This document shows, in pieces, positions 3,407 through 23,003 of a stretch of DNA of 36,796 nt. Source of the DNA: Atopobacter phocae ATCC BAA-285 (GTDB lineage: Bacteria > Bacillota > Bacilli > Lactobacillales > Aerococcaceae). The notes under the pieces are model-generated. The model was not told the origin of the DNA, searched no databases, and saw only the letters and a list, made by a program, of their open reading frames with translations. The DNA is taken from assembly GCF_000526675.1 (NCBI RefSeq), contig NZ_JAGN01000013.1:1-36796 (forward strand), read 5' to 3'. A program made the translations under genes and the position numbers. The first letter of the stretch is position 1. The number at the start of each line of letters is the position of its first letter.

Positions 3407-6400
3407 TTAATTTTTTTCTCTTTTTAATTTTTGAATCCATTTCTTAATTGTATATGCCATCGCTATAAAGGCCATTGCGTATACAGAATAGAAGGTACGA
3501 GTTTCACCTGTTTGTGGTAATTTTGCTTGTTTATTAACTACCTTATTTGTGCTTGTGTTAGAGTTCATTTTATTTTCAGTCAATGCGTTTAACTCAGATT
3601 GTTTGTTATTTCCAGACTGAGAACCATTCTCATTAATTGATCCTTGTGTCCGCTCTTTCGTTCCATACTCTACTACTGCATCAACTTTTTCTTTTAAAAT
3701 AACTTCTTCTTGTTGCAATATAACCACTTCATGCTCACTATTGAGTTGGTAAGTAGTTGTTACTTGTTTTTCACCATTTTTTCCTTCAGTGATTATTTGT
3801 TCCGCTTCATCTTTATAGCGCATATTATTGGCTACTCGTTTAGTTTCGTAAGGGATTTCTACTGTTTGGACAGTTGGTTTGATTCCTACTAAAATAACTT
3901 GATTAATTGGTTCTTTTATCACGATACCATCTTTCTTTTCACCTAATTGTCCAGTTACTTGTACTTTAACTTCTCCAACTTCCAATGTTTCATCTGCTTG
4001 ATAAATAATCTCAAATGGAATAGATTGTGACTCATTCATCTCATCTTGTTTCGTTTCGCCATCATTTTCTGATTGTTCTCGTTTCTTTGTACCATATTCT
4101 ACCACTTGTTCAACTGGTAATTGTAAAATGTTTTCTTTTTCTTCGAGAATAACAACTTGATGGTTCTCATCTAATTGGTAAGTGGTTGTCACTGATTTTG
4201 AGCCATTAACACCTGGTGTAACAATTATTTCTTCTCCTTCAAAACGTTCATCATTTGGAATACGTTTGATTTCAAATGGAATTTCTACCACTTGGGTCGT
4301 TGGTTGAGTACCGATTAAAATAATTTGGTCAATCGCTGGAGTCACTACTTTTCCATCAATTGCTTCACCAACTCGCCCTTCTCTTTCCACTTTTTGTTCA
4401 CCTTTTGGAATAGACGGATCTGCACGATATTCTGTTTTGAATGGAATTTCATTTTTTCCTTTTTGATTTTTATTAATTGCAGGTGCTCCTGTTGTTATTG
4501 AATTATTCAATGGATTAACAATACTTGTATCCAAACCTGGTGCTTTTAATCCAATCCAGTATGGTGATTTTTCATCATCTGTTAAAGTTGGTTTGTGAAT
4601 ACCGTCGTAGGCGTAACCGATTGTTCGACCATCAATTTGGACATGTTCAGTGTACGCTTTACCGACTGGACTTTTCTCATCAAAGTTACTTCCACCTTGT
4701 AAGAATGCTTCACTAACAGCAATTGTTCCATCTCCATTAACAGCATGACCGCCCTGTAAAGCTTGACCATATCCACCAACTGCAATTAATTTACCGTCTC
4801 CCTCAATTCGACTGTTTTTATTTAAAATAAGTGCGTCTCCACCAATTGAAGTAGTTGCAAAACGTCCGCCTCCGTATAATCCTAATTCAGAGTCTTTCGG
4901 TATAATTAATTGACTGTTTGCGGCCATTTCTAAAGCTGGTTGGCCTGTATACATTTTCCCATCTGAATGTGTTCCCGTTGCTGATTCATCACCGCGAATA
5001 TACACTTTACCATCTAATTGAACTTTTCCTTCAACTTTTACGACTGGTGTGTCGATTAAACGAGCTACTCGACTATCTGTTAAGTTATTTGCATTAGAAT
5101 AAATGAGTGAAGATCCTAAAATAGCGCCGTCTTTTAATATGACTTGTCCGTTAATTGATGAACCTGTTAAATACTGATTATGATGCTCATCGTAGTTCAT
5201 TTGCAATTTTCCGCCTTTTTCAACGGTAATTGTTCCATAAAGTGATGAATCATAAAAATTGAGATGCCCACCATTTTTAACTAAGATATTTACACTACTT
5301 AAAATTTTCATATTTCTCAATGTTAAATTAGTATCTTTATCGACTACTAACGTTTGATGCGGTACGTGATGTTGGTCCACTGCATAACCTAATACACCAT
5401 ACACACCACTTTCATGCGAGCCATGCCATAATTTTAATTCCGATGGCACAGTTACTTGAGATGGTTTCGTTTTATCTGCATCTCCAAACTGCTCAATATA
5501 CCATGGGGCCATATCCCATTGATATTTATCTTTGCTATTTAGTAATTTAAATTGCTCTGATTTAAATTCATCTGTTAATTTAACTTTTGATAAATCATAA
5601 ACTTTAAAAGGTAATTCATTTGAAGTCTCTTTACGTCCAAGTTCATCCGCTACAGTGACACTAATTTTGTATTCCCCTGCCTTACTTGGTATACCACTTA
5701 ACATCACAGAACTTTCATACGTGTTATAGAATGGTTTCATGCCCATTGTTTCATCATTAATATTGACTTTACTTTGATTATGAATTGCACGAATATTTGG
5801 TGAATCTTTTAAAAGTTTCCAATCTTCTTCTTTTGGCTTTTGATTATTTTCAGTTTCTGCCACTTGAAGCACAACATTACTATTTTTATTCATCGTTGCT
5901 GATCCAGTAGCTGAAGAAACTGCATCATATTTTTTCTGATTAACTAGAGCTGCTTCAAAGGATCCGACTAAACGTACATGTAATTGTTTATCTGTTAATT
6001 TATCAGAGTTTACAGCTTCAAATGTATTGTCTTTAATTTTTCTGAATTTACCAAGTACTTTATCATTTACGTCTTTCAAAACAATTACGCCATTTTCTTT
6101 TAACTCATTTCCTAAAAACAATTCTTTCTTGGTTGTATCTTTATAAAAAACATCATTGAATACAGCTGCTTTTGAGTCCGTTTTTCTATAAGAGATAGTA
6201 CCTACCTCTACCTTTTCAATCTTTTCAAAATCTATACCACTAAATTCCAAAGAATAGATATTCGTTCCTACTTTTTTATTTTCTTTCTTTATTTCTTTTT
6301 TATTATTTTCAGATATTAGATTTGTATCCACACTAACTAAATCTCTCTTTTTTCTTTTCTTCTTTTCACTTAAAATTTCTTTTTGCTTCATTGGTATTGA

Positions 6401-7507
6401 GTTTTCATTATTTTTCCGAACAATTTTTTCTTCTTTTTCAACTTGTTCATTGTGCTTTATTTCCTTATTTTGTTTTAATTGATCTTCTTGCTTTACTAGC
6501 TCTTTCGCTGGTACTTGCTCTTTTACTTTTATTTCCTCTTTTACTTTTATTTCCTCTTTTTCTCTTACTTGCTCTTTTGCTTTTACTTGCTCTTTTGCTT
6601 TTACTTGCTCTTCTTGTGTTATTTCTCCTTTTCCTTCTTTACTGTTTTGTGCTTTTTCTTTGGAACTTTCCACTGATTTTGAAATTTCATTTTCTAAAGT
6701 TAAAATTTCAAATTGATTATCTTCAACTTTTTTTATTTGAGTTAATATCTTTTTATTTTCGTCTTTAAACGTAATTATCGCATCTTTTTTTATAACTTTT
6801 TCAAAAAATATATATCCATTTTCTTTATCAATATAAAATCCACCATTCGATGTTGACTGTTTATAACTAGCTTCTCTTAATTTATGCGAATCTATTTCTA
6901 CTTCTTTAATTTGATTTACTAATTCTTTTGGTTCCAAGGATATATAATAAAAATCAAATACATTTGATTTCTGATGTTCATTAACTGTTTTTATTTTTAA
7001 TTTATTTGATAATTTGACTGCATCAAGCATCTTTTCTTCCTTTTGCTCATTACCTAATTCATTATCTGACTTTTCAACAATTTTTGTCTCAACATCAAAT
7101 ATTTGTTCAAAATTTTTTTTATTTTTATTGTATTTATATTTCCCTAATAATTGATCGTCCTTATCTTTTAATTCAATTACTTTTTCATTATCAGGTTCTT
7201 GGATATAAAGTTCTCCATTTTCTTTATCAATAAAGTATTTAACTTCCTTTCCAAACACTGATAGTCTACTTGAAACAAGTTTAGCTGTTTCATTATCAAC
7301 TAATACCTTGTCAATAATTAATGCTTTATCAATAGGTGTAATTTTTACTTTAAAATCAAACCCGTTTTCATATTTTAATTCTATTTTATCTTTGTTTACT
7401 TGTTTTGCCACAATATGATGATGACTTGCCCCGTTCAAACATACGAGTAATCCCGCTGCTGTGACAATTTTAAAATATTTTGATTGTTTGTTGTTTGCTT
7501 CTTTCAT
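3407..7507 (-). CDS. LPXTG-anchored surface protein with beta-helix-like core and two G5-type modules
   Basis: 1366 residues, sortase-anchored. Order: signal sequence (about 1-35; ends in a histidine-rich ASHHHIVAKQ stretch); two related beta-rich units (about 46-130 and 180-270, each with an FYIDKENG- or YFIDKENG-like strand); a charged low-complexity stalk (about 290-375) built on (K/R)(A/V)KEQV-type repeats; a third related unit (about 425-500); a region ending in an Ig-like segment (IPSKAGEYKISVTVADELGR); a central domain (about 690-1000) of short Gly/Asn-rich beta turns typical of a parallel beta-helix; two similar modules of about 125 residues (about 1020-1147 and 1162-1286) with VVEIPFEIKRI / VTTTYQL / VVEYGTK signatures of G5-type domains; LPQTG (1330-1334), hydrophobic segment and positive tail. 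AAGGAGG precedes ATG. The binding partner is unknown; adhesin is the best guess. It is monocistronic. Confidence 0.85.
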   Translation of the reverse strand: MKEANNKQSKYFKIVTAAGLLVCLNGASHHHIVAKQVNKDKIELKYENGFDFKVKITPIDKALIIDKVLVDNETAKLVSSRLSVFGKEVKYFIDKENGELYIQEPDNEKVIELKDKDDQLLGKYKYNKNKKNFEQIFDVETKIVEKSDNELGNEQKEEKMLDAVKLSNKLKIKTVNEHQKSNVFDFYYISLEPKELVNQIKEVEIDSHKLREASYKQSTSNGGFYIDKENGYIFFEKVIKKDAIITFKDENKKILTQIKKVEDNQFEILTLENEISKSVESSKEKAQNSKEGKGEITQEEQVKAKEQVKAKEQVREKEEIKVKEEIKVKEQVPAKELVKQEDQLKQNKEIKHNEQVEKEEKIVRKNNENSIPMKQKEILSEKKKRKKRDLVSVDTNLISENNKKEIKKENKKVGTNIYSLEFSGIDFEKIEKVEVGTISYRKTDSKAAVFNDVFYKDTTKKELFLGNELKENGVIVLKDVNDKVLGKFRKIKDNTFEAVNSDKLTDKQLHVRLVGSFEAALVNQKKYDAVSSATGSATMNKNSNVVLQVAETENNQKPKEEDWKLLKDSPNIRAIHNQSKVNINDETMGMKPFYNTYESSVMLSGIPSKAGEYKISVTVADELGRKETSNELPFKVYDLSKVKLTDEFKSEQFKLLNSKDKYQWDMAPWYIEQFGDADKTKPSQVTVPSELKLWHGSHESGVYGVLGYAVDQHHVPHQTLVVDKDTNLTLRNMKILSSVNILVKNGGHLNFYDSSLYGTITVEKGGKLQMNYDEHHNQYLTGSSINGQVILKDGAILGSSLIYSNANNLTDSRVARLIDTPVVKVEGKVQLDGKVYIRGDESATGTHSDGKMYTGQPALEMAANSQLIIPKDSELGLYGGGRFATTSIGGDALILNKNSRIEGDGKLIAVGGYGQALQGGHAVNGDGTIAVSEAFLQGGSNFDEKSPVGKAYTEHVQIDGRTIGYAYDGIHKPTLTDDEKSPYWIGLKAPGLDTSIVNPLNNSITTGAPAINKNQKGKNEIPFKTEYRADPSIPKGEQKVEREGRVGEAIDGKVVTPAIDQIILIGTQPTTQVVEIPFEIKRIPNDERFEGEEIIVTPGVNGSKSVTTTYQLDENHQVVILEEKENILQLPVEQVVEYGTKKREQSENDGETKQDEMNESQSIPFEIIYQADETLEVGEVKVQVTGQLGEKKDGIVIKEPINQVILVGIKPTVQTVEIPYETKRVANNMRYKDEAEQIITEGKNGEKQVTTTYQLNSEHEVVILQQEEVILKEKVDAVVEYGTKERTQGSINENGSQSGNNKQSELNALTENKMNSNTSTNKVVNKQAKLPQTGETRTFYSVYAMAFIAMAYTIKKWIQKLKREKN

Positions 7508-7768
7508 AGATAGCCTCCTTAAATTTGTTCGATATTAGTGTACTATATCACATTTTTTAAGTAAACTTAATTTTTATAAAAATATAAAATTTTACAATCA
7601 AATATATCTTTTATCAATAATCGCTCTAAAAAACTGATTAAAATTTACTTTTTATGTCTTTTCATCACTTATTTTTAGCATACTCATGCTATTTGTTGTG
7701 TGACAAAAACATATTGCTTTTTGAAAAGAATTTGATTTTTAATCATTTAAAATTTTAAAGCACAAAAA
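7508..7768. other. AT-rich upstream region of the surface-protein gene
   Basis: Holds the AAGGAGG ribosome-binding site just above the ATG at 7507. A TATAGT hexamer on the minus strand near 7535-7545 could be a -10, but no convincing -35 was found. No gene was seen in the remainder. Confidence 0.4.
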
Positions 7769-7789
7769 AACGAGCCTTTAAGACTCGTT
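7764..7789 (-). terminator. Terminator of the sirTM-type operon
   Basis: On the minus strand ACGAG and CTCGT arms (7789-7785 and 7774-7770) close a short hairpin followed by a run of seven T residues. It lies about 12 nt after the lplA2-type stop codon and closes the seven-gene operon. Confidence 0.75.
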
Positions 7790-7801
7790 TTAAAACTTCT
7801 A

Positions 7802-8821
7802 TTATGAAAAAATTAATTCTACTAATTCTTCTTTAGTAATTGAACCAAAATAAATTGGCAAGTCAAGTGGCGTTAAAGCAGATAAAACATCTTCTTTTTC
7901 CATCTTTGTTCCGATTAATGCTTTTTCAACATCATGGATATCCGCTTTTCCAAAGAAATCCCCGTAAATGCGACAAGCTTCAATGCGCCCTTTTTCAATC
8001 GATAAATGAATATCAATGGTCCCTCCCGCAAATCGTGCATCGCGATGATAACTGTATTGAGGTGAGTTTCCATAATTCCATTCCCAATTTTTATATTTTG
8101 ATTCGGTTAATTCATCAATTTTTTGCCAGTCTTCTTCTGTTAAGTCATAACGCTTAGCTTGATCAATATGTTCGATATCCAATAATTGACAAACCATTAA
8201 ATCTTTAAATTCATCCACCGTAACCTCTTGATATTCTGGTGCTAAATGTTCCCGAATATTGCCCACTCGACTACGAACGGATTTAATTCCTTTTGATTCA
8301 ATTTTCTTACGATTTGGATTTAAAACCTTTTCCATCTCATCAAAATCTACATCTAAAAGTAATGAATAGCCACCATACACACGGCCATTCGCAATGGTCA
8401 TAGCAGCGCCTGAAACTTTTTTGCCATTAGCAACTAAATCGTTGCGCCCCGTCATTTCAACAGAAGTTGCACCAAGATGATGGAGTGCTTTAACAGCTGG
8501 CTCATAAGCTCGTTTAAAATCACCAAAGATACCATTGTCATTAATTAAATAACAAATATTAACGGCTCCTGAATCAACATAAACTGCTCCGCCACCAGTG
8601 TCACGACGAACAACTGGAATATGATGTTCTTTTAAATAATCTTGATTAGTTTCAACTACGGCATTTTGATACCGACCAATTTCTACTTTAGGATCACAGT
8701 AATAAGGGAATAAAATATCATCATCTAAGAAGATATTTTGTTGGACGTAAACTTGCATCGCTAAAGCGACAGCACCATCAGTGATACGTTTTCCATTGCG
8801 TATTGGTTCAATTAAGTACAT
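7802..8821 (-). CDS. lplA2: Lipoate-protein ligase A (LplA2-type)
   Basis: 339 residues, full length for an LplA with both the catalytic and the C-terminal accessory domain. It adenylates lipoate and transfers it to a lysine of an acceptor, here most likely the GcvH-like protein of the same operon. The diagnostic motif RRDTGGGAVYVD is at residues 72-83, and the conserved lysine loop NGKKVSGAAMT lies around 132-142. AAAAGGAG precedes ATG. It is the last gene, 48 nt after the sirtuin. In characterised SirTM operons (Staphylococcus aureus, Streptococcus pyogenes) the linked LplA2 lipoylates GcvH-L, which is a prerequisite for ADP-ribosylation. The symbol is assigned by operon context. Confidence 0.9.
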   Translation of the reverse strand: MYLIEPIRNGKRITDGAVALAMQVYVQQNIFLDDDILFPYYCDPKVEIGRYQNAVVETNQDYLKEHHIPVVRRDTGGGAVYVDSGAVNICYLINDNGIFGDFKRAYEPAVKALHHLGATSVEMTGRNDLVANGKKVSGAAMTIANGRVYGGYSLLLDVDFDEMEKVLNPNRKKIESKGIKSVRSRVGNIREHLAPEYQEVTVDEFKDLMVCQLLDIEHIDQAKRYDLTEEDWQKIDELTESKYKNWEWNYGNSPQYSYHRDARFAGGTIDIHLSIEKGRIEACRIYGDFFGKADIHDVEKALIGTKMEKEDVLSALTPLDLPIYFGSITKEELVELIFS

Positions 8822-8869
8822 GGTATTCTCCTTTTGGGTTTAAAATTTTTGATTATTTAAGTGAACGAT

Positions 8870-9760
8870 TTATTGTACATGCGCGTTAAAATAATATGCT
8901 TTTGTTTCATTAAGTAGCGTTGCAATATGTTGAGTCAACTCGATACTTTGTTTGCGAATAGGTTGTGGCAGCCGATAATGCTTATGATTTAACGTTACAA
9001 ATAAAGCGTCTGGATTATCTGCCACTCGTTTCCAAAACGGATGCTTAATAAATTGTGGCGTTGTGTGACCAACACCAATCTCTAAATAGAGTACTCGACC
9101 TGTCTCATGTTGCGAGAGAAATGACTCATACCTTTGTTGTTGTGCATCAAAATCAGCATCTTCCACCATCCCTTTTTCTTCATTGCGTTTGTTGATTTCA
9201 AAAGGTGCATGGCATTTTGGACAGTGTGGAACCAAATGACTTGGTATTTTCATATCTTGTTGTTCCTTAATCATTTGTCGAATGAGTGAATCATCTCGAT
9301 AAGTTTGTTGATGACAATGTTCACTACATTGCCACAACCCATATTCTCCTTGAATGTGAAAGACCTTTCCTGGATCATAATCGGTGATCCAAAAAGCATT
9401 ATCCGCATTAGTCGTAATCACATGATAAGGCTTCGTTTCCAGTATTTGACGCAAATCAATATAAGAAGGTCCGATTGGTTGATCTAAATAATTTAAAGCA
9501 ACAAACCGACTTTGAAAAGCCCAATACTCTTCCCAATCTTCAAATGAATGCAAGCTTGCTTGTAACATGTCGAGAAAATGATATTTTTCAATAAAATCTG
9601 GAAAAGCCGTTTCAAAGCGAGATCCAATATACGTAAATCCGTCAGCTGCAGACATCCCGGCCCCAATTCCGACGACAAGCGCATCGGATTCATGGATCAA
9701 TTGTGCTAACTGTTCTGCTTGATTCAAATGAGTATTTGAAAGAGTGTGCCATATTGTCAT
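8870..9760 (-). CDS. sirTM: SirTM, class M sirtuin protein ADP-ribosyltransferase
   Basis: 296 residues. Sirtuin Rossmann fold with [10 protein letters not shown] (33-42) in place of the usual [13 protein letters not shown] (116-123) in place of TQNID, and HIQGEYG (135-141) where deacetylase sirtuins have the HGS region. Asn118 and Gln137 match the positions reported as catalytically important in the S. pyogenes class M enzyme, which ADP-ribosylates rather than deacylates. A zinc site is visible as CSEHC (145/149) and CPKC (180/183). The expected substrate is the lipoylated GcvH-like protein encoded two genes upstream. It begins 1 nt after the macrodomain gene, and AAGGAGGAATAAA just before ATG gives it a strong ribosome-binding site. 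Confidence 0.93.
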
Positions 9761-9761
9761 T

Positions 9762-10559
9762 TTATTCCTCCTTTCTTAACAATTGATGATAATAACGTTT
9801 ATCTTCTTGAGTGAACGTATTAAAAATAACGTTTATTTTGTCATCATGTGTCCTTAACCACTGTTTTACCGTATCGACAGCAATCGTAGCCGCAAGCTGT
9901 TTTGGAAAAGCAAACTCCCCCGTCGAAATGGCACAAAAAGCTAATGAATGTAATCCCTCTTTTAACGCTAAGTCTAAACACGATTGATAACATCGTTTTA
10001 ATAAATCTTGTCTTATCGCAGAAACTTTTCGACCGGGTTGAACGCTTGGACCGACCGTATGAATAATGTGCGATGCCGGTAAATGATAGGCTTTTGTTAT
10101 TTTCGCCTGTCCAACTGGTTCTTTTCTACCTTGTACAGTCATTAAATGGTGGCAAGCTAAGCGTAAGCGAACACCCGCATATGTATGAATGGCATTATCA
10201 ATGCACCCATGATTTGGAATAAAACAGCCAATCATCTCACTATTTGCCGCATTGACAATCCCATCCACTTCTAAATGTCTAATATCGCCATGATAGGTAT
10301 AAATATTAGGATGATTGGTTATATGACATTCTGCTAATTGAATCGGCTGATATTGATGATGATACTGCGTTAAAAAAGTGTCTTCTAAGGACAAATATTC
10401 TGAAGATACATTAACTGGTGGTCGGATATTAATTAATTCCCGCCACATTCGCTCCCGTTCTCGTATAGTTGAAGGTAACGCCTCTTCTACCAAACGACTG
10501 CCTTGTTCCAACTTGAGCAGTTGAATCATCTGTTTAAGCAAATCAAATGTATTAAGCAT
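9762..10559 (-). CDS. Zinc-containing macrodomain ADP-ribosyl hydrolase (MacroD-type)
   Basis: 265 residues. An N-terminal helical extension of about 80 residues precedes a macrodomain (about 85-260) with [17 protein letters not shown] as the ADP-ribose-binding strand-loop and [14 protein letters not shown] as the second phosphate loop. Cys112, His117 and Cys119 in [17 protein letters not shown] match the zinc ligands of the Zn-macro subclass found in SirTM operons. Its expected role is to remove the modification that SirTM places on GcvH-L. The start codon lies inside the end of gcvH-L (8-nt overlap) without a strong ribosome-binding site of its own, suggesting translational coupling that ties eraser level to substrate level. 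Confidence 0.93.
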
Positions 10560-10887
10560 CTTCTAGCGCTTCAAATGACGCAACATCTACATCTGTTAAC
10601 TTCACAATCCAATGTTCTTCAGCTTTTTCAGAGTTTAACAAAGTAGGGGTCATAATAGCTGCTTCATTACGTTCAACAATGGTTCCTGCTAACGGTGATA
10701 AAATCCCCATAACGGTTTTAGAAGCCTCTATGTTAAGCAATGTATCATCAACTGCTACATGAGTCGCTTCAGAAAATTCTGCATAACCCACTGTTCCTAC
10801 ATCGTCTTGTAGTTCAGGTGTCATACTAATTGTATAAAGGTCTCCTTCTTTTTCAATTAACAAATAATTGGCCATTTTTTTCATCAT
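10552..10887 (-). CDS. GcvH-like lipoyl carrier protein (GcvH-L)
   Basis: 111 residues, slightly shorter than true glycine-cleavage H protein. The lipoyl-lysine hairpin reads [17 protein letters not shown], with Lys57 as the predicted lipoylation site. Acidic residues in [12 protein letters not shown] (Asp28/Asp29) sit where the ADP-ribosylated Asp is reported in the staphylococcal homologue; this position match is from memory of the family and approximate. No other glycine-cleavage gene is in the window, so this is the dedicated carrier of the SirTM circuit rather than a glycine-cleavage subunit. The start could be the first or second of two tandem ATG codons after AAGGAAGGA. Confidence 0.9.
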
Positions 10888-10928
10888 TAATCCATTCCTT
10901 CCTTTTTTAAGATTGAATTCTTTTGTAA

Positions 10929-11924
10929 CTATTTATAAAGCTGAGCTAATAATTCTAGTGAGCGTATCCGTTGATCAACTGTTGGCACAAGTGGTATCAC
11001 AAGTACCTCATTCGCTTGCGCAGCTTGAATGAGTGTATCCAATTGTTCTTTAACACGTTCTGGTCCACCGATAATCATACGTTCTCGATTAGCTTTGATG
11101 GTCACTCGTTGTAAATCCGTTAACTGATAATTACCTACATCCTGTTTGTCAGGATACTTTTCAAATTCATTGAAGACTTGGTTACCTAACATCCACAAGT
11201 CCAATGATTGCGCCATTTTTTCAGCCACTTCATCGGTATCGCCAATTACGATAAACGCAGCAACCATTAGCTGTGGATTCGGACAATGAGCTGTTGGTCT
11301 AAAATGGTTAAAATATGTTTGAGATACTTTTGGTGCTTCAATTAGCGGATTTTTCTGCATATAAGGGAATACACCAAACGTATAGCCCATTCCTAACTCA
11401 CCCGCCCATTGTGCAGTTTGTTCGCTATTACTTAGCGTCCACATTTGAGGCATTGTTTCAACAAGTGGCGTCACACGTACTGGTAATTGAGGTGCTATCG
11501 GAACAGTTAAATATCTTTGTATTGTCGCTAATACTTCTGGATAATCGCTTTTAGTATGAATACTATTTAATGCGCGATGAACAGGATGACTACCTAAAAA
11601 ACTACCCATTCCTAAATCAATTCGGTTCGGATGAATAGCTTCCAAGGTTTTAAAGTTTTCAGCTATTTTATAACTACTGTAATGTAAAGCCATCACGCCA
11701 CCAGACCCAATACGAATGTGTTGTGTTCGATCCGCAAGATGCATCATTAATACTTCTGGACTACTTGTTGAAAACGCTGATATATTATGGTGTTCAGCTA
11801 CCCAAAAACGCTGATATCCAAGTTGCTCTGCTCTTTGAGCCAATCGAACCGTATCTTTTAATGCATCACGAGCTGTTTTTCCTTTAACCACTACACCGTA
11901 ATCCAGTACACTTAATTCCATCAT
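10929..11924 (-). CDS. Luciferase-like flavin monooxygenase (LLM class)
   Basis: 331 residues, normal for the bacterial luciferase-like TIM-barrel family using FMNH2 or F420-type flavins. Family marks: LSVLDYG at the N terminus, [20 protein letters not shown] as the conserved barrel segment, and [20 protein letters not shown]. The gene overlaps the end of the OYE-family gene by 4 nt (ATGA) and has AAGGAG 6 nt upstream. In the longer versions of the SirTM operon an LLM and an OYE oxidoreductase accompany the core genes; their substrate is not known, and a role in the oxidative-stress response linked to lipoyl groups is inferred. Confidence 0.88.
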
Positions 11925-13120
11925 GAACGCTCCTTATAGTTTGATTCAAGCGAACGAAATAGCGTACGCGCTTCTTGGGGTAAAGATTCTCCATAATCCA
12001 TTAATGGAACAATATCTTTAAAAGACGCTGATGGAATAGCTAACTGTTCCAAATCTTCCAATCGAATTTTTAATTGGATCATGTCCTCTTCCCCGTTCAT
12101 CATTTTTACCACAAATTCAGGGTCCACAACTAAGGGAGTCGAGGCACCAATGAAATCCGTATGAGCTAAAGCTTCCATTGCTTTCTCTGGTGTATTGATC
12201 CCGCCAGTCGCCATAACAGGTAATCGGCCTTTAAAATGTTCCCAAACGACCTGATTCACTAACGCTCCTTGAACCGGCCCTTTTGCTCGAATTTTATTTC
12301 GAAAAGCATCATGTCCCCAACTTGCAATAGCTAAATAATCTAAATGCGCTACCTCTAACGCCCATTCTACAAATTGAATGAATTCATCAACTGTATAGCC
12401 AATCGAATCTCCTCTCGTTTCTTCCGGTGTTCCTCGAAAGCCTAGGATAAAATTTTCAGGTGCTTCTTCTGTTATAACTGACTGAACGGCGCGTAACACA
12501 TCCAACCCTATTTTTGATCGAGTCACTAAGCTTTGCACACCATATTCATCGGTTCGTTGATTCGAAAAGGTTGAGAAAAAAGTTTGTATTAACAATCTTT
12601 GAGCAGAAGATATTTCTACCCCATCAAATCCTGCCGCAATTGCACGCCGTGTCGCCTGAGCATAACGTTCGACAATCGCTTCGATTTGTTCGACAGATAA
12701 CGCTTTAACTTCATGCGGTTGAGGCGCGTTTAAGCGCATTGGGCTCGGTCCATAAACAAACCCATATTTCTTCAATGTATGCGTTGAAAAACGTCCTGCA
12801 TGTGTCAATTGTAAAATTGCTTTTCCACCTTTGGATTTCATCGCTTGTGCTAATTTTTTTAGCCCAGGAATATCTTCATCTTTAGCTGAACTAAACCCAT
12901 ATTCAAATAATTGGCCGTATTCGTCAACATAAGCTGCCCCAGTAATTTGCAGATGAGCTGACGCGGCTCTTCGGGCTGCGTACTGAATGTCATCTTCTGT
13001 CACTAAACCATGAGCTGTTGAGGAATTCGTAACCATGGGTGATAATACGAAGCGATGTTTTAAAACAGTGCCATTAGGTAGCACTAATGGTCTAAATAAT
13101 GATTTAAAACGCTCGTCCAT
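11921..13120 (-). CDS. Old Yellow Enzyme family NADH:flavin oxidoreductase
   Basis: 399 residues, FMN-binding TIM barrel. Visible family blocks: FRPLVLPNGTVLKHRFVLSP, AILQLTHAGRFS, a GFDGVEISSAQRLLIQTFFS segment, SNQRTDEYG, and the phosphate-binding end PVMATGGINTPEKA. In most OYE enzymes the segment after GVEI is HGAxxYL, whose His and His/Asn pair binds the substrate; here it is SSAQRLL, so the usual active-site pair is absent and the substrate is probably unusual for the family. The ATG has AAAGGAATAAATT upstream. It follows the lipL-like gene directly. Confidence 0.88.
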   Translation of the reverse strand: MDERFKSLFRPLVLPNGTVLKHRFVLSPMVTNSSTAHGLVTEDDIQYAARRAASAHLQITGAAYVDEYGQLFEYGFSSAKDEDIPGLKKLAQAMKSKGGKAILQLTHAGRFSTHTLKKYGFVYGPSPMRLNAPQPHEVKALSVEQIEAIVERYAQATRRAIAAGFDGVEISSAQRLLIQTFFSTFSNQRTDEYGVQSLVTRSKIGLDVLRAVQSVITEEAPENFILGFRGTPEETRGDSIGYTVDEFIQFVEWALEVAHLDYLAIASWGHDAFRNKIRAKGPVQGALVNQVVWEHFKGRLPVMATGGINTPEKAMEALAHTDFIGASTPLVVDPEFVVKMMNGEEDMIQLKIRLEDLEQLAIPSASFKDIVPLMDYGESLPQEARTLFRSLESNYKERS

Positions 13121-13123
13121 AAT

Positions 13124-13951
13124 TTATTCCTTTCTAATTGATTGATTCATTCGTTGATAAAACTGACTAAAAGACGTCACATATTGAGCTTGAGGTTGCC
13201 AATCTTGATAATCAAAGCCAATCTGTTTCAGTGCTCGTTTTAACCGTTCAACAACTATTGATACCGTTAAAGTCGAGTCTAACAATTCACTTAAGTTAGC
13301 CATACACATCGGATCAACTACTGGATAACGAGTTCCTGCTTGCTCTTCCTGCAATCCTTCTCGATAAAATGCTGCAATCATTTGTCCACGCTTCATTTGA
13401 TCGCCATTTACACTCATATATATGGACACCACAATTCCTTTTTTGATTCGACGTTGCGCAATTCCAGCAAATTTTTTGCCATCAATACTTAAATCATAGC
13501 GGCCTGGACAATAGGACTGCTCTATTTCATAACAGTCAATTTTTTTCGAAAAATCAGAAAACATTACTCGGACTAATCGAACCATCATCTGATAGGCTTC
13601 ATCAATAGTAATGCGTTCCTCCAATTGATCTGGAATAATGAGAGAAAAGTTTAACACACCTTTATCAGCAACTACTGCCAATCCACCTATATTTCGGATA
13701 ATAGGACGATAATTCTGTTGTTCAATAGTATGTAATGCTCCTTGAATATGAGGAAGTCTTTTATCCGCCATACCAAGAATCACCGTTCTCTCCATTGGCC
13801 AAATATGTACAATCATTTGATTAGTTTCTTCATTTATTTGACGAATAAACGTTTCAGTCCACGCAAATGGCGCAAATGCTCGTTCCTTATCTGAGATAGC
13901 TTCTTGATAAATACGAACCGGCAATGACGTCAAATTTTCTAATTTTGACAT
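13124..13951 (-). CDS. LipL-like lipoyl/octanoyl amidotransferase (LplA/LipB family)
   Basis: 275 residues from the preferred ATG at 13951, which has AGAGGTG five bases upstream; an in-frame ATG at 13990 has only a weak AGG. The cofactor-transferase fold shows RNIGGLAVVADKGVLNFSL, and SYCPGRYDLSIDGKKFAGIA contains a Cys at residue 148. A Cys in this context is the nucleophile of Bacillus LipL, which moves octanoyl or lipoyl groups from GcvH to other acceptors by a thioester intermediate, whereas LplA enzymes use an adenylate. The gene is therefore better read as an amidotransferase working with GcvH-L than as a second ligase. It is first in the operon. Confidence 0.85.
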   Translation of the reverse strand: MSKLENLTSLPVRIYQEAISDKERAFAPFAWTETFIRQINEETNQMIVHIWPMERTVILGMADKRLPHIQGALHTIEQQNYRPIIRNIGGLAVVADKGVLNFSLIIPDQLEERITIDEAYQMMVRLVRVMFSDFSKKIDCYEIEQSYCPGRYDLSIDGKKFAGIAQRRIKKGIVVSIYMSVNGDQMKRGQMIAAFYREGLQEEQAGTRYPVVDPMCMANLSELLDSTLTVSIVVERLKRALKQIGFDYQDWQPQAQYVTSFSQFYQRMNQSIRKE

Positions 13952-14026
13952 AAGTGTCACCTCTTTCTCCGGTAGGTTTTCTATTAACATTTTACCTAAA
14001 AAAACTCAATATAACAATTATGATAT

Positions 14027-14040: not shown

Positions 14041-14163
14041 TTATTTTTTAATATTGTATTTAATATGGAAAAATTTATAAAAAATTAGATTCATACTTTT
14101 TAATTCAACCATAATAGCGTATAAAATAAAAACTTAGACCAATCAAACTTTTCCAAACCAAAA

Positions 14164-14194
14164 AAGAAGGTGGTACCTCATCTACCACCTTCTT
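14164..14194 (-). terminator. Terminator of the ABC/two-component operon
   Basis: Twelve-base arms AAGAAGGTGGTA (14164-14175) and TACCACCTTCTT (14183-14194) pair perfectly around a 7-nt loop, with A and T runs on both sides. It lies 25 nt after the response-regulator stop and could also act in the other direction. Confidence 0.88.
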
Positions 14195-14218
14195 TTAACT
14201 TAGACTAATTTATAATGT

Positions 14219-14818
14219 TTAAATCCAATTATTTTCTCGTGGAATTCGAACAGCGTCCATACGATTTTCTGCTTCTAATTTTTGAATAATATTACTCACG
14301 TAATTGCGGACAGTACCATTTGATAAATGCAATTGCTCAGCAATTTCTTTATTCGATAGTCCTTGAGCAACTATTTTGAGTAATTCTTCTTCAGAGTGAT
14401 TGAGCGGCCGATGATCCTTTAACATTATATCCATTAACTCAGGCGAATATTCTTTTCGTCCTGCTAATACGTTACGAATGGTCTGCATTAATTCATCAAT
14501 TGACCGTTCTTTCAAAACATAAGCGTCTACTCCTGCTTTAACTGCTCGTTCAAAATAACCTGGTCGTTTAAATGTCGTTATAATAATAACTTTAGTATTT
14601 AAGGATGTTGTTTTAACCCATTCTAATACGTCTAAGCCTGTTTGTTCTGGCATTTCTACATCTAGTATGGCTACATCGATTAATTCGCGTTGCAATAGCT
14701 CTTTAGCCTCTACACCGTTAGCTGCAGGCCAGACTTGCTCGACTTCCTCTTGAAAAGTCAACAATTGACATAATGCATCGCGTAACATACTTTGATCTTC
14801 GGCTACTAAAATTTTCAT
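14219..14818 (-). CDS. NarL/LuxR-family response regulator
   Basis: 199 residues. Receiver domain 1-120 with the phospho-acceptor Asp53 ([15 protein letters not shown]) and the acidic pair at AEDQ. The output domain is a LuxR-type helix-turn-helix near the C terminus ([20 protein letters not shown]), typical of the DesR/LiaR group. The ATG overlaps the kinase stop by 4 nt, so the pair is translationally coupled. It most likely regulates the ABC genes of its own operon through the TGTCAT/ATGACA half-sites upstream of the ATPase gene. Confidence 0.9.
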
Positions 14819-15903
14819 GAGTTTTCCTCCATTGGAATCATAAGGCGAAAATGTGTCGGATTTTTTAAAGAAATCACTTCTAGTGTCGCTTGCATCGTCA
14901 CTAATCGATTTTTTACCGCTTGCAATTCATTTCCTCTCCACTCTCTAAATCCTATACCGTTATCCTGATAATCTAAAATCAATTGATGTTTTTGTTGATT
15001 AAAATGCAATTGACATTGCGTTGCCTGACTGTGCTTAATCAAATTAGTCATGAATTCTCTTAGAATCATTGCTAATTTTCCTTGTTTTTCGAGTGATAAC
15101 TGCTGAGGCAATGAACGATTAGTAATTATTAATTCAACATTCGCCATTTCTAACATGTTACTTAAAATGACTAGTTCTTCTTCAACTTGATGATTTTTAA
15201 GCGAATGAACAATAGATCGGATATCATTCATCGTCTGTTTAGATATTACTAAAATTTCATTCGCTTCTTTTTTAGCTTGATCTAATTGTTCGTGCTCTAT
15301 TAATGTTTTCAGTAACTCGGATTTTACCGATAGTAATGCAAAAACATGGCCAAGTGTATCATGTAAGTCTTGACCAATTCGATTGCGTTCATTATCAGCT
15401 AATAACAAATTAATTGATTCATTTTTTTTTATTAATTCATCTTTTTGTCGCTTATAATTAGCTTCTTTTTTAAAAAAATACAACATACTGCAATTAAATA
15501 AGGGAATTAAAATAACAATCATTCGCACAAATGTATCCTCAATATTCCATAAGCCGACTATGACAATCATTAAAATCGTCAATAAATAGGATAGCATGCG
15601 AAAAGATTTCAATGAATCTTTGAAACGAAACGCTAGTAGCGAATTAAAATAAAATAAAAACCAAATCATTGAATATTCTATACACAAAGTCATATATAAT
15701 ACGTACAGAATCATATAGGTCCAAGTTAGATTGATTTTCCATTCACTCTTTCCAAATATGGTGTACAAATAACTTAAAACAAATCCTAGTGTCAAAAAAA
15801 GTGAATAAGTTGGATAAGTTTGGGTGATTGCACCAACAACTGGGAATGCAATAAAGACTAAATTTATGTAGTAAAGAGGATGTTTCAACTGAACGTAATC
15901 CAT
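14815..15903 (-). CDS. DesK/LiaS-like sensor histidine kinase
   Basis: 362 residues. Five or six membrane segments fill residues about 10-145, with almost no extracellular domain, so the signal is likely sensed in or at the membrane. A short coiled linker leads to the HisKA_3 motif [13 protein letters not shown] with His181. The ATPase domain shows [14 protein letters not shown] (N box) and DYQDNGIGF (G1 box). The ATG follows the permease stop directly. The signal is not deducible; related systems sense membrane fluidity or envelope stress. Confidence 0.88.
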
Positions 15904-16635
15904 TTAATTGACCTCACGTTTTTGTTTAATGCGAATGGCTAATGCTGCAATAATTATCGCATACACTAAAACGATTAGTAAAGACTTTGTAGCTATATTT
16001 TCTTGTGAAATATAGCTCGTTATAAAGTGATTAACGTGATAACTTGGTGTTAATTTAGAAATAGCTTGTACCCCTTTTGGAAATAAAGAAATAGGCCACC
16101 ATGATCCACCGATAATGGCTAGACCTAAAAAACTAATATTGCTGACAATCGACATCACTTGTTGCTTATTAATTTGACTAATTAATAAGCCGATTGCAAG
16201 ATATACTGAACTTGTCAATAATAAAAATAAAGCACTTATAAGCCATTTATTGACAGACAATTCTACCCCACGAGCAAAAGCACCCGCAAAGAAAGTCACT
16301 ACAATCGAAACTGAAAAATAAATGATCACTCGAATGATTTTTGATAAATAGTATTGACTCATTTTTAATGGTGAATGCTCGATATATTTTAAATAGTGAT
16401 TATTCAAATCTTCTTTTAATAGCACTGGAAAAGTAAATAGTGCAAACGAAGACATAGAAAATGATGTCATCGTCAACATATATTCTCTAATAAATTTTTG
16501 TTTTAACACGGCGTTTTCAAAATTGTTAGTCGACGAAAAAAATAAAAAGAAAGCTAGAGGCATACCGACTGACATAATAAACACTGGCCAATTGCGTCGT
16601 ATTTGAATCCATTCCATTTTTAATAAAGCACTCAT
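15904..16635 (-). CDS. ABC-2 type transporter permease
   Basis: 243 residues with six predicted membrane segments, the ABC-2 permease layout. The start LLKMEWIQIRRNWPVFIMSVGMP and the LIGLLISQINKQQ-type internal stretch fit drug or Na+ export permeases of the NatB/YhfI kind. It begins 3 nt after the ATPase gene and partners with it. The substrate is unknown. Confidence 0.85.
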   Translation of the reverse strand: MSALLKMEWIQIRRNWPVFIMSVGMPLAFFLFFSSTNNFENAVLKQKFIREYMLTMTSFSMSSFALFTFPVLLKEDLNNHYLKYIEHSPLKMSQYYLSKIIRVIIYFSVSIVVTFFAGAFARGVELSVNKWLISALFLLLTSSVYLAIGLLISQINKQQVMSIVSNISFLGLAIIGGSWWPISLFPKGVQAISKLTPSYHVNHFITSYISQENIATKSLLIVLVYAIIIAALAIRIKQKREVN

Positions 16636-16638
16636 TTT

Positions 16639-17511
16639 TTAATCCTCCCGTGTTGTGTCAAATAGCGTATTTAACAACGTCTTATTTTGAATTTCCAAAT
16701 CATTTATAGTACAACCTGCTACCTGTAATTTTGAAAATATATCTTCCATCTGATTCGTCTTAAATTGAATAAATTCTTTCGATACTTTTAAATCTTCAAT
16801 AAAATCAAACGTTTGAACAACTGATAAAAATTTAATAGGTACTGTTACTAGTTTACTTGTTTCCTCTTTACGCATCATATAAGGCGTTGTATCTCGTATT
16901 AACTGACCTTGATGAAGCACTAAAATACGATCAGCAGTATGCTCGACTTCTTCAATATAGTGACTAGAATACACAATCGTTACACCTTGCTTTTTCAATT
17001 GTTGAACAATTTCCCAAAAACGTTGGCGAGTTGTTGTATCCATCCCTGCTGTTGGTTCATCTAAAAACAACATATTAGGTTGCCCGATTAAACACAAAAC
17101 AAAGGCTAATAAGCGTTTTTGTCCACCTGATAATTTGTCGGCTAGCTGATTTTCTTGATTTGAAGTGAATTGCAATAACGCCCGTACTTCCTCTAGACTT
17201 AATGGGCGATCATGAATCGATTGAAAAAATTGAATTAATTCATTCACTTTAAAATCTGTGGGAATGACATTATCTTGCATTAACACAGCTACTTGTTTTT
17301 TATTACTAACTGTTTTTGGTGATTGTTGATGAATGAGAATCTTTCCTCCATTAATTTTCTTATCTCCTAACATACACGATAGTAGCGTTGTTTTACCTGC
17401 TCCATTTTGTCCAATTAACGCCACACATTCTCCTGGATTAATTTTAAATGTAATATCTTGAAGAATGTTTTTATTATTTATCACTTTTTTAACATGTTCT
17501 ACTTCAATCAT
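16639..17511 (-). CDS. ABC transporter ATP-binding protein
   Basis: 290 residues from ATG 17511; GGAGGG lies six bases upstream of it, so a TTG 18 bases earlier is not used. Walker A GQNGAGKT, signature LSGGQKR and Walker B MLFLDEPTAGMD are all intact. The C-terminal extension of about 80 residues is typical of ATPases that pair with a separate ABC-2 permease. It heads a four-gene operon of ATPase, permease, kinase and regulator, a layout commonly devoted to self-regulated export in response to membrane or antibiotic stress. Confidence 0.9.
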   Translation of the reverse strand: MIEVEHVKKVINNKNILQDITFKINPGECVALIGQNGAGKTTLLSCMLGDKKINGGKILIHQQSPKTVSNKKQVAVLMQDNVIPTDFKVNELIQFFQSIHDRPLSLEEVRALLQFTSNQENQLADKLSGGQKRLLAFVLCLIGQPNMLFLDEPTAGMDTTTRQRFWEIVQQLKKQGVTIVYSSHYIEEVEHTADRILVLHQGQLIRDTTPYMMRKEETSKLVTVPIKFLSVVQTFDFIEDLKVSKEFIQFKTNQMEDIFSKLQVAGCTINDLEIQNKTLLNTLFDTTRED

Positions 17512-17545
17512 TTGTATCCCTCCAATCAATCGATGAGTAAATTAT

Positions 17546-17669: not shown

Positions 17670-18353
17670 TCATTCCTTTGAATCAATCTTTAAATGTGTT
17701 TCGTCACCATTTATTGGTTCTAAATCTTCTTTATTTCTTTTTTTTAAAAGAAACATAAGATAGCCTAAGAATACAAAACTTACTCCAATTAAAATGTTCC
17801 CCATTTCTATCTCACCTGTTTGTGGTAAGAACCCCAAATGTTTATGAGCTATTTTTTTAGGGATATGATACGTTGGATAAAAATTAGTGGATTCTACTTT
17901 GTAATGTTCACTATTCACTAACATCATTTCTTTCACTTCAAGATGAGTTCCCGAACCTGTAACTGTTATACGCCATTCGTAAACTTCTTGATCAGGCGTT
18001 AAATAGTCAATCGACTCATTATCTTTTTGATAAACTCGATAATAATATTCACCGGCTTTTTTGATTGGTAAATGAATGAATCGTTCTTCATTTCCAGTAA
18101 GATAAAAGACAAATTGCTCATGTGCACTTTGTGGCAACGGTGCATCAGGAGTAATCGGTTCGATGACGTACTTTAATCGATCATTAGGTGTACTATACTC
18201 ATGATTTACCGTGACCTTTTGTTTTACAGTCATACTGACAGGCAATTCAAGGGCAAATATTTTATTTGAATGAAAGGAAAGAGCCAAAAACGTCATCAAA
18301 ATTGCACATAACGTTTGCCTTATGAAAACGTTATATCGTTTATTTTTGTACAA
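17670..18353 (-). CDS. FctB-like basal/anchor pilin with LPQTG sorting signal
   Basis: 227 residues from TTG at 18353, chosen because GGAGAGGAGG lies nine bases upstream; frames starting earlier run through that ribosome-binding site. A signal peptide (about residues 8-36) is followed by one compact beta domain of about 130 residues with a pilin-type YRVYQKDNES segment, then LPQTG at about 176, a hydrophobic helix and a charged tail. Small size, position after the pilus sortase and a canonical LPXTG match FctB-type proteins, which join the finished fibre to the wall through the housekeeping sortase. The start overlaps the sortase gene by 14 nt. Confidence 0.82.
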   Translation of the reverse strand: MYKNKRYNVFIRQTLCAILMTFLALSFHSNKIFALELPVSMTVKQKVTVNHEYSTPNDRLKYVIEPITPDAPLPQSAHEQFVFYLTGNEERFIHLPIKKAGEYYYRVYQKDNESIDYLTPDQEVYEWRITVTGSGTHLEVKEMMLVNSEHYKVESTNFYPTYHIPKKIAHKHLGFLPQTGEIEMGNILIGVSFVFLGYLMFLLKKRNKEDLEPINGDETHLKIDSKE

Positions 18354-19272
18354 TTGGATTGGCCTCCTCTCCTTTTTTCTTTCGTTGAATCTTATCATAA
18401 ATGAAGTATATAGTTACTAATACAAGCCATAGTACAATTAAAACAAATAAGACATTCATACGGTAAGCTCGTTTAATCAATGAACTTAATTGATGATTCG
18501 ATTTCGTTTCTGGATAGGGATTGCCAACGACTTGATCTGTTAAGCGACCAATTAGAATGTATCGTCCATTTGTAATGGTCAAATCACATGTGTCCAAGAC
18601 GACTAAACGATCTTCTTCTTTAAAATCGATAGGCCTTGAATAAGTTGCCCCCTCATAAATATGTTCAATTAGTCCTTGCTTATCTTCGCTCGACTTAGCT
18701 GTGGAAAGAATAGTTTGGTCTGTTCCAACTGTTTTTAAATAGGCAAAAAATTCAATACCTAGACTTTTTTGTCCTGTTCGATGAATTGCCCCATATTGAT
18801 GTGTGTCAAAGAATTCTTTTGATTTAAATCGTTCGACATCGCCAAACATCTTTCGCTCTGCCATATAATGTCCGTATAAAATATTTTGAAAATCCGAAAA
18901 ATCTTGATTATTTCGAGCGTCTAAAAAAATGCTACCAGCTGTTGAAAAGTCGCCCAGGACTGTTTTGTTTAAGTATTCCCAATTGTCTTCACCTTGGACA
19001 ATTGGATAGTCTATTTTGGTGCCATATACATCAATCCAGCCAATAACATCTTCATTAATGTTTTTCAATTCATCTAAGGAAAGATTGTCTTCCTTATTCG
19101 GCTTATAAACAGTGTATTGATCGCTGCTGGCGATTGTCATCACTTGATGTGTATCCCAAAAAGCATATGCACCAATGAATAGCGCTAATAAAGATAAAAT
19201 CAAAATTACATAATCTAATCCTCTTGAAACCCTTCGAATCATTCGAATTTTCTTTTTTTGCTGATTGGTCAA
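18340..19272 (-). CDS. Class B pilus sortase
   Basis: 310 residues. An N-terminal membrane anchor (about 19-39) is followed by a sortase barrel with His135 (LYGHYM), Cys229 (VVLDTCDLT, the TLxTC motif) and Arg237 (NGRYILIGRL). The class B fold is suggested by the helix-rich insert between His and Cys (about 145-210), as in the pilus sortases of FCT-2/FCT-3 and pneumococcal PI-2. It should join backbone pilins through their QTPTG signals. The start is TTG at 19272 with GGTGG upstream; the first ATG is 30 bases inside and lacks a ribosome-binding site. A 111-nt gap separates it from the pilin gene. A second hydrophobic helix lies at the C terminus (about 270-290). Confidence 0.87.
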   Translation of the reverse strand: MTNQQKKKIRMIRRVSRGLDYVILILSLLALFIGAYAFWDTHQVMTIASSDQYTVYKPNKEDNLSLDELKNINEDVIGWIDVYGTKIDYPIVQGEDNWEYLNKTVLGDFSTAGSIFLDARNNQDFSDFQNILYGHYMAERKMFGDVERFKSKEFFDTHQYGAIHRTGQKSLGIEFFAYLKTVGTDQTILSTAKSSEDKQGLIEHIYEGATYSRPIDFKEEDRLVVLDTCDLTITNGRYILIGRLTDQVVGNPYPETKSNHQLSSLIKRAYRMNVLFVLIVLWLVLVTIYFIYDKIQRKKKGEEANPIVQK

Positions 19273-19383
19273 TTATTCCGACCACCCTTCAATCGCTGAA
19301 GATCAGGAAGCATGTTTACTTACTCGTTTAACTTCAGGATTCTTAGTGCCTACAATTACTTTTGTACGCATAAACTAATTGCC

Positions 19384-20553: not shown

Positions 20554-20581
20554 ATTATTCCTTCTTTCTTATGGGTTGTTT

Positions 20582-21118
20582 TTATATATCGCGACGTCTA
20601 ATAAGTGTAAATATTTTCCCAGATATATCTTTTGTTTGAACTGGCCCAAAAAGTCTTGAATCAGTTGCTTTATCTCGATTATCAGCTAAAAGAAATACCT
20701 CTCCTTCTTTTAACGTAACTGGAAATTTGATTCCTTCTTTAAAAGGAAGTGTTTCTTTATAGATTTTGTCCTCATATTGATGCGAATTGTTAACTTTAAA
20801 TCCATTTTCATCAATATCTACTGTGTCCCCTGATGAAGCAACAATACGTGCTATTTTTATATCCCCTTTGTACTGATATACAACAGGCTCACCTACCAAA
20901 TATTTTTTATCGATTCGATAATACAAAATCATGTCTCCCGGATTGATGTTGGGAACCATTCCTGTATCATTCACTCGATGTATTCCAAATATAAAGGTAA
21001 ATACACTGACTATTACAATCGCAAACGTAACTATTTTTATAAATAATTTCAATGTTGCTTTTGTCACTGGGTCTTTCACTCGTCTAGTTGTTTTTATTTT
21101 TTGAGGAGATGTTACCAT
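20582..21118 (-). CDS. sipA: SipA-like signal-peptidase homologue lacking catalytic residues
   Basis: 178 residues, type I signal peptidase fold. One N-terminal membrane segment (about 24-45), then the box B region TGMVPNINPGDMILYYR. The catalytic Ser of the usual SM-x-P motif is replaced by Gly53. In box D, where active enzymes have KRV-x-G-x-x-GD, this protein has ARIVASSGD, with Ala90 in place of the general-base Lys. Box E (DNRDKATDSRLFG, 146-158) is kept. The S. pyogenes SipA/LepA also lost both residues and acts as a pilus-assembly chaperone, so the same role is inferred. The ATG overlaps the end of the ancillary gene and has AGGAG eight bases upstream. Confidence 0.88.
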   Translation of the reverse strand: MVTSPQKIKTTRRVKDPVTKATLKLFIKIVTFAIVIVSVFTFIFGIHRVNDTGMVPNINPGDMILYYRIDKKYLVGEPVVYQYKGDIKIARIVASSGDTVDIDENGFKVNNSHQYEDKIYKETLPFKEGIKFPVTLKEGEVFLLADNRDKATDSRLFGPVQTKDISGKIFTLIRRRDI

Positions 21119-22938: not shown

Positions 22939-23003
22939 TATTTCACCTCCTTTGAGGTACATTCGCTAAAAATAGAAATATGTAATGTTAATTAGAAGTT
23001 ATC

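Follow-up and report, generated by a model that had tools for sequence, protein, structure and literature searches.

A seven-gene SirTM operon of probable streptococcal descent in Atopobacter phocae, headed by a LipL-like gene: ADP-ribosylation as a possible gate on lipoyl exchange

We analysed a stretch of 36,796 nucleotides from Atopobacter phocae ATCC BAA-285 (contig NZ_JAGN01000013.1; the whole stretch is called the window below), which carries an operon comprising the sirtuin SirTM, the lipoyl carrier GcvH-L and a LipL-like transferase. Seven open reading frames (ORFs) run on the minus strand from position 13951 to 7802. The head gene encodes a LipL-like lipoyl/octanoyl-GcvH:protein transferase of 275 amino acids (13124..13951) and is followed by genes for an OYE-fold flavin oxidoreductase (399 amino acids; 11921..13120), a luciferase-like flavin oxidoreductase of the MsnO8 subfamily termed LLM (331 amino acids; 10929..11924), the lipoyl carrier GcvH-L (10552..10887; 110 amino acids when counted from the second ATG at 10884), a Zn-macrodomain ADP-ribosyl hydrolase, MacroD (265 amino acids; 9762..10559), the ADP-ribosyltransferase SirTM (296 amino acids; 8870..9760) and the lipoate-protein ligase LplA2 (339 amino acids; 7802..8821). 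The genes are tightly packed: 3 nt separate lipL from OYE, OYE and LLM overlap by 4 nt, 41 nt lie between LLM and GcvH-L, GcvH-L and MacroD overlap by 8 nt, and MacroD and SirTM are 1 nt and SirTM and LplA2 48 nt apart. An initial annotation, made from the sequence alone, had described a seven-gene operon in this order with overlaps or tiny gaps, and ORFs, protein families and distances all agree with it. For lipL, the start at 13951 is preferred over the mechanically called ORF start at 13990 because GAGGTG precedes 13951 and the streptococcal homologues are of similar length. All 14 named Streptococcus loci show the same gene order (with LipL truncated in S. phocae), and the arrangement is therefore not due to chance.

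Six of the seven genes, OYE and LLM included, constitute an already published system. According to Rack et al. (2015; PMC4518038), the extended SirTM operon consists of GcvH-L, macrodomain, SirTM and LplA2, commonly accompanied by OYE and LLM. In that account, LplA2 lipoylates GcvH-L, SirTM ADP-ribosylates GcvH-L only when it is lipoylated and the macrodomain reverses this modification; these reactions and the binding of OYE were shown experimentally with proteins of S. pyogenes and S. aureus. Oxidative stress induces the operon (PMC4518038). The window resembles the operon of these two organisms, as described in the passages available from PMC4518038 and PMC11490716, in having the four core genes adjacent in the same order together with OYE and LLM, and in carrying the characterised residues. 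It differs from the operon of Rack et al. (2015) by a LipL gene added at the head. Among solved structures, SirTM, MacroD and GcvH-L all match S. pyogenes proteins best, namely SirTM itself (5a3a, E 1e-163), the macrodomain (8rsm, E 7.5e-99) and GcvH-L (5a35, E 1.7e-52), and structures 5A35 and 5A3A-C are deposits of Rack et al. (2015).

Residue conservation was judged on aligned rows in which some strains are represented twice and from which sequences below 75% of the length of the window protein were excluded. SirTM matched no model in Pfam or NCBIfam. Its Asn118 and Gln137, both named in the initial annotation, and likewise Arg192 are kept in 108 of 108 rows, and the replacement of the catalytic His by Gln137 alongside Asn118 and Arg192 is that of a class M sirtuin. 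The Cys112/His117/Cys119 triad of MacroD, which we take to be the three zinc ligands, is present as annotated and is kept in 103 of 103 rows, giving the loop of a zinc-macrodomain; the protein scores 358 bits with NF003163 (cut-off 272). In the passages available from PMC11490716, three ligands lie within eight residues and His118 is named in the S. aureus protein, which fits this triad, and an H117Y variant serves as inactive control for the S. pyogenes macrodomain. The lipoyl Lys of GcvH-L is kept in 111 of 111 rows, and K57, E25 and D28 of the window protein correspond to K56, E24 and D27 in the S. pyogenes numbering, which is used from here on; the carrier thus has the Lys56, Glu24 and Asp27 of the extended SirTM operon. 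It matches PF01597 and scores 51.6 bits with the NCBIfam GcvH model (cut-off 115.85), outside the range of a canonical glycine-cleavage GcvH. LplA2 is recognised by TIGR00545 (390 bits, cut-off 280) and contains PF21948 and PF10437. The aligned rows revealed no loss of the named SirTM or macrodomain residues. Judged by their residues, writer, eraser and carrier look intact, as had been proposed, and so does the ligase.

The two flavin enzymes had been regarded as components whose roles were not established. The core was rightly identified as known; OYE and LLM are no additions to it, since they already form part of the published operon and S. pyogenes OYE binds GcvH-L in a manner dependent on lipoylation (as stated in PMC4518038). 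LLM is a clear member of its subfamily (TIGR03558, 335.8 bits, cut-off 167; PF00296). OYE matches PF00724 and, among solved structures, 3l5a (E 1e-144). When aligned with the class III OYE 3hf3, operon-type OYEs differ in carrying Ser171, Gln174 and Leu176 (93 of 93 rows) at the positions of His172, His175 and the following Tyr. Asn32 stands at the position of Tyr27 in 92 of 93 rows; the numbers Tyr27 and, for the following Tyr, Tyr177 are those we assume for an OYE of the 3hf3 type. Neither a His/His or His/Asn pair nor a Tyr proton donor, as expected of an ene-reductase, is thus found. Most operon OYE rows keep a QL(A/T)HAGR stretch, which presumably takes part in flavin binding, and this they share with class III OYEs. 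The family is that of 3hf3, YqjM and, going by the portion of PMC9152700 consulted, S. aureus OfrB. The substrate pair of 3hf3 is His172/His175, and another OYE kept about 30% activity when either His or the Tyr was changed singly (both from passages of PMC10787880). Ordinary ene-reductase chemistry is hence doubtful for the operon OYE on the basis of its residues, and its activity is not settled by them, because single changes in that other OYE were tolerated to this extent. The changed active site may point to lipoyl-GcvH-L rather than to alkenes as substrate.

The first gene, annotated as LipL-like, indeed finds its best NCBIfam matches in the two LipL models, although both scores are below cut-off (268.7 of 400 and 238.1 of 450). 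The same holds for the housekeeping LipL of the window genome (219.5 and 184), for S. agalactiae LipL and for six other LipL-type genes, so that the cut-off does not separate genes of this kind. Cys148 in the motif SYCPG, which we take to be the catalytic Cys of the LipL family, is invariant across 60 LipL rows, of which 57 are distinct. B. subtilis LipL is a further member of this amidotransferase kind. The nearest solved relative is 2p0l (E 5e-88), which is nearly identical to the operon LipL of S. agalactiae (612 bits over 278 residues); it was deposited as 'Lipoate-protein ligase A', yet by family it is a LipL-type transferase. An operon LipL has thus already been solved. Of the two lipoyl-transfer enzymes initially annotated, LplA2 stands as a ligase, whereas the head protein belongs by family to the LipL-type transferases. 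Its identification as a second ligase was rejected, the LipL models matching best and TIGR00545 giving only 46.8 bits (cut-off 280), and an octanoyl-ACP transferase LipM was set aside, no model so named appearing among its NCBIfam matches.

LipL is the extra part relative to the published operon, built in as a seventh gene. The word LipL does not occur in the main text of PMC4518038, where the operon is given as six loci, and Table 1 of that paper enters no LplA3 or LplA4 (LipM/LipL) for S. pyogenes. In the introduction of a 2026 paper (PMC13155669), S. aureus LipL is said to supply E2 with lipoate carried by GcvH or GcvH-L; the same paper places S. pyogenes lipL about 70 kb from pta and does not use the word SirTM. 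Lipoyl-GcvH-L was raised as a possible LipL substrate in a passage of PMC5049849. S. aureus LipL belongs to the same family by best NCBIfam match and differs in location, lipL being linked to pta there (pta-lipL; accessible parts of PMC5049849 and PMC13155669) and to the SirTM operon in the window. In the literature, mostly passages with subscription journals thinly covered, no statement assigning LipL to the SirTM operon was found.

To judge how regular this linkage is, we compared genomes at three levels. In the order, SirTM occurs in 71 of 395 genomes, and stretches were taken for 53 matches, weaker ones being omitted. Within this order sample LipL is part of the operon in seven of seven Streptococcus extended operons and in none of 34 non-streptococcal GcvH-L loci. 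A named collection of 46 loci, which overlaps the order sample and includes some short contigs, has LipL in first place in 14 of 14 Streptococcus loci and in 0 of 32 others; in S. phocae (L166, 4146-4607) LipL is truncated to 153 amino acids and the other six genes are of normal length. Among 284 Streptococcus genomes GcvH-L is present in 33, every one of which also has LipL, and LipL heads the operon in 26 of 26 SirTM operons (in both counts one copy, in G320, is truncated). LipL proper occurs in 46 genomes, four broken copies counted and seven further genomes with only weak matches dropped; it stands without GcvH-L in 13 (ten intact in length, three broken), and 238 genomes have neither. The association is strong (Fisher p 7e-33 over 284 genomes), with a statistic that ignores kinship. 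The E2 component is found in 269 of the 284 genomes, including all 46 with LipL. LipL follows GcvH-L more closely than E2, because 223 streptococci have E2 without LipL. As a predictor of LipL, E2 was rejected (LipL in 0 of 15 genomes without E2 and in 46 of 269 with it, p 0.14). The operon is headed by LipL in at least four different chromosomal contexts.

The partners available to LipL were compared as well. Each of the seven order-sample streptococci has GcvH-L as its sole full-length GcvH match and the operon LipL as its sole LipL-type gene; the other GcvH matches are partial (about 35-38 model positions in frames of 147-168 amino acids, three of them just over cut-off). In six non-streptococcal genomes (G098, G254, G274, G305, G365 and G381) no GcvH other than GcvH-L exceeds the cut-off, and a gene at another site has the LipL models as its best match, which leaves GcvH-L as the one GcvH-type partner observed for LipL there. 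As a separate observation, five streptococcal loci (L089-L093, from G137, G257, G308, G248 and G180) combine a distant SirTM with an adjoining macrodomain and lack GcvH-L; the genomes concerned contain no GcvH over cut-off and a single ligase-family gene.

The 33 streptococci with GcvH-L fall into 26 with operons and seven with loci holding only LipL and GcvH-L. Three operons are irregular: in G423 no LLM ORF was matched, in G462 SirTM is split over two ORFs and in G320 LipL is truncated as mentioned. Six of the seven pair loci were judged on about 7 kb of flanking sequence in both directions (less where one contig ended); for the seventh (G219) the whole genome was searched and no SirTM match was found. 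In G219 the ligase family is reduced to LplA1 and LipL, and LplA2 is lacking. By their LipLs, the seven pairs fall into two clades, one with three members and one with four. The smaller clade groups with S. pacificus, whose full operon shares its chromosomal context, and therefore looks derived by loss. The loci of the clade of four are flanked by coaBC-like and fhs-like genes (identified by eye); full operons and lone LipLs occur in this context as well.

The residues of GcvH-L differ between the two kinds of locus. In the available text of PMC4518038, Asp27 is the likely site of ADP-ribose attachment with involvement of Glu24, and ADP-ribosylation, but not lipoylation, requires both residues; the macrodomain contacts predicted on GcvH-L are Tyr7, Asp27 and Glu36 (PMC11490716, likewise from passages). 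In 103 operon GcvH-L rows, Glu24, Asp27, Asp28, Glu53, Lys56 and Gly67 are invariant and position 7 is Tyr or Phe in 101. The seven pair GcvH-Ls all keep the lipoylation residues Glu53, Lys56 and Gly67, whereas all seven have lost Tyr7, Glu24 is lost in three and Asp28 in five, and Asp27 is changed to Glu in two, such that every one of them has at least one change among Glu24, Asp27 and Asp28. Glu36 is Asp in all seven, a position that varies in the operons, too. These patterns are suggestive, from two clades only, of a lipoyl-carrier job beside LipL that may persist where the ADP-ribosylation job is absent. With the lipoylation site kept while the ADP-ribosylation and predicted macrodomain-contact surface changes, they pose a defined question, namely whether the mark blocks LipL.

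We then asked from where A. phocae obtained the operon. When six operon proteins are concatenated (29 rows), the resulting tree places the window in an 11-row group with a support of 99, which otherwise consists of Streptococcus and Granulicatella balaenopterae. The sampled family-mates of the window genome include Granulicatella, Abiotrophia and Aerococcus. Approximately unbiased (AU) tests reject a grouping of the window with three other Granulicatella-type rows (p 2e-67), with G. balaenopterae (1e-4), with Abiotrophia (4e-8) or with G004 (6e-10); a test with all family-mates as one clade was uninformative on the window alone, the family-mates being scattered even without it. In the LipL tree the operon LipL of the window stands in a group with streptococcal LipLs (support 96), and the housekeeping LipL of the same genome stands on a long branch with housekeeping LipLs of other families. 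The tree of SirTM alone is less resolved. The genus-mate G122 gave no SirTM match. On account of the six-protein tree, the AU tests, the LipL tree and the genus-mate lacking SirTM, the operon was most likely acquired horizontally, being streptococcal by descent, by a bacterium of another family. It has moved more than once, since Granulicatella rows also nest among streptococci, for those rows possibly in either direction. Base composition was discarded as proof of transfer: the G+C content of the operon is 38.2% against 31-32% in the flanks, yet other stretches of the genome reach 38%. A plasmid or phage as near source was likewise rejected, SirTM matches in 24 plasmid and two phage records all being under 60% identity. 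One phage record (OR849908.1, 5.5 kb, labelled Staphylococcus phage) with a 60% SirTM match is perhaps host DNA.

The window genome possesses four genes of the ligase/transferase family, namely LplA1, LplA2, the operon LipL and the housekeeping LipL. Besides GcvH-L it encodes a pyruvate dehydrogenase (PDH)-type E2 with one lipoyl domain and a stand-alone GcvH-type protein of 114 amino acids that follows a rodA/ftsW-type gene (contig C7; L001, 1498-1842) and lies below the NCBIfam GcvH cut-off. No glycine-cleavage gene was present among the ORFs of this 3.3-kb locus. Two lipoylation circuits thus coexist in the window genome.

Taken together, we favour a streptococcal SirTM operon of seven genes in which LipL moves lipoyl groups between GcvH-L and E2-type domains while SirTM and MacroD gate the carrier, a reading that we consider somewhat better than even (about 55%). 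In this scheme LplA2 would attach scavenged lipoate to GcvH-L, and LipL, via an acyl-enzyme at Cys148, would shift lipoyl between GcvH-L and E2-type domains such as that of the PDH-type E2. SirTM would ADP-ribosylate lipoyl-GcvH-L at Asp27 and MacroD would remove the mark, which would thereby lock or unlock GcvH-L as the lipoyl partner of LipL. Lipoate would accordingly either stay on GcvH-L, for OYE and perhaps LLM to act on during oxidative stress, or be released to metabolism. The steps differ in strength. Loading by LplA2 and exchange by LipL between GcvH-L and E2-type domains appear well supported by the comparisons made here, which also indicate the tie of LipL to GcvH-L, the descent of the operon and the conservation of its residues. 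The acyl-enzyme is inferred by analogy with the family, and lipoyl transfer could run in either direction. That ADP-ribosylation gates LipL is our hypothesis, and what the built-in LipL contributes is a suggestion as to what the ADP-ribose tag may switch. More tentatively still, and possible rather than likely, ADP-ribose could decide between release to LipL and PDH and retention for the redox enzymes, with LipL and GcvH-L as the core, SirTM and MacroD as a regulatory layer and OYE as a lipoyl-GcvH-L reductase instead of an ene-reductase.

Several points weigh against the favoured reading. Ten streptococci have a LipL of intact length and no GcvH-L match, one of them (G312) without any match to the GcvH family, so that LipL can persist without GcvH-L and a strict need for it is spoken against. 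The co-occurrence counts treat related genomes as independent, the window genome provides the only non-streptococcal LipL-linked operon in the samples, and S. pyogenes is absent from the 14 named Streptococcus loci. Of the six non-streptococcal genomes listed above, two are just 85% complete. The independent pair-forming events are few, amounting to two clades, and the clade of four may either have lost the other genes or never have had them. The NCBIfam score does not fix the acyl group and acceptor of LipL, hence the term LipL-like. In the window genome, which has LplA1, a second GcvH and a housekeeping LipL besides, the LipL of the operon may be redundant, and the gate is hypothetical.

Three other explanations must be weighed, each of which we regard as unlikely. 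The published model may suffice, with lipoate on GcvH-L acting as redox scavenger or as substrate of OYE and LLM, ADP-ribosylation as the switch and LipL as an uninvolved neighbour. The lipoylation-dependent binding of OYE, the induction by oxidative stress and the frequency of OYE and LLM in operons without linked LipL agree with it, but an uninvolved neighbour is hard to reconcile with LipL in all 33 streptococci having GcvH-L, with seven loci where both genes stand together and OYE, LLM, SirTM and MacroD are absent, and with the 3 nt between lipL and OYE in the window. Likewise improbable is that LipL works in the loading direction, stripping lipoyl from E2 or another domain onto GcvH-L, so that under stress PDH would be turned down and GcvH-L armed. 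LipL potentially allows a dynamic redistribution of lipoate, as put forward in PMC13155669, and in G219, where LplA2 is lacking, GcvH-L must be loaded by LplA1 or LipL; the operon LplA2, however, already loads GcvH-L directly (PMC4518038, in the text available).

The remaining explanation, to which we give as little credence, holds that LipL is a streptococcal housekeeping gene for E2 lipoylation that merely shares its site with the SirTM operon. The presence of E2 in every genome with LipL speaks for this, as do the ten genomes with LipL alone: nine were checked, and in all of them LipL lies at a site that holds the full operon in other species. A housekeeping role is at odds with the 238 of 284 streptococci that manage without LipL, 223 of them having E2, and a shared site with an operon headed by LipL in several chromosomal contexts; in the window genome, moreover, LipL accompanies the operon and falls among the streptococcal sequences in the LipL tree.

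Terminator-like hairpins flank the operon 3' of lplA2 (minus strand, 7791-7767; 7767..7791) and between the operon and the upstream two-component/ABC genes (minus strand, 14196-14162; 14162..14196). Both are consensus matches only, and the scan as a whole returned seven sites versus 4.9 in shuffled sequences, which makes it weak evidence. An Rfam search of the window matched no structured RNA, and inspection by eye of 23 regions upstream of LipL, that of the window included, showed no conserved regulator box. Directly upstream of the operon, beyond the second hairpin, genes for a LuxR-type response regulator, a HisKA_3 kinase, an ABC-2 permease and an ABC ATPase are located on the minus strand (14219-17529). 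On the other side, the minus strand from 3407 to 7507 encodes a large surface protein with an LPQTG signal at its end and overlapping repeats in 18-nt steps near 6441-6638. Further upstream, the region 18340-22962 (minus strand) is perhaps a pilus or surface-protein locus; an FctA/DUF7601 pilin-like protein and a signal peptidase S26 are encoded there, and weak matches were obtained to a sortase and, in another protein, to atypical Rib.

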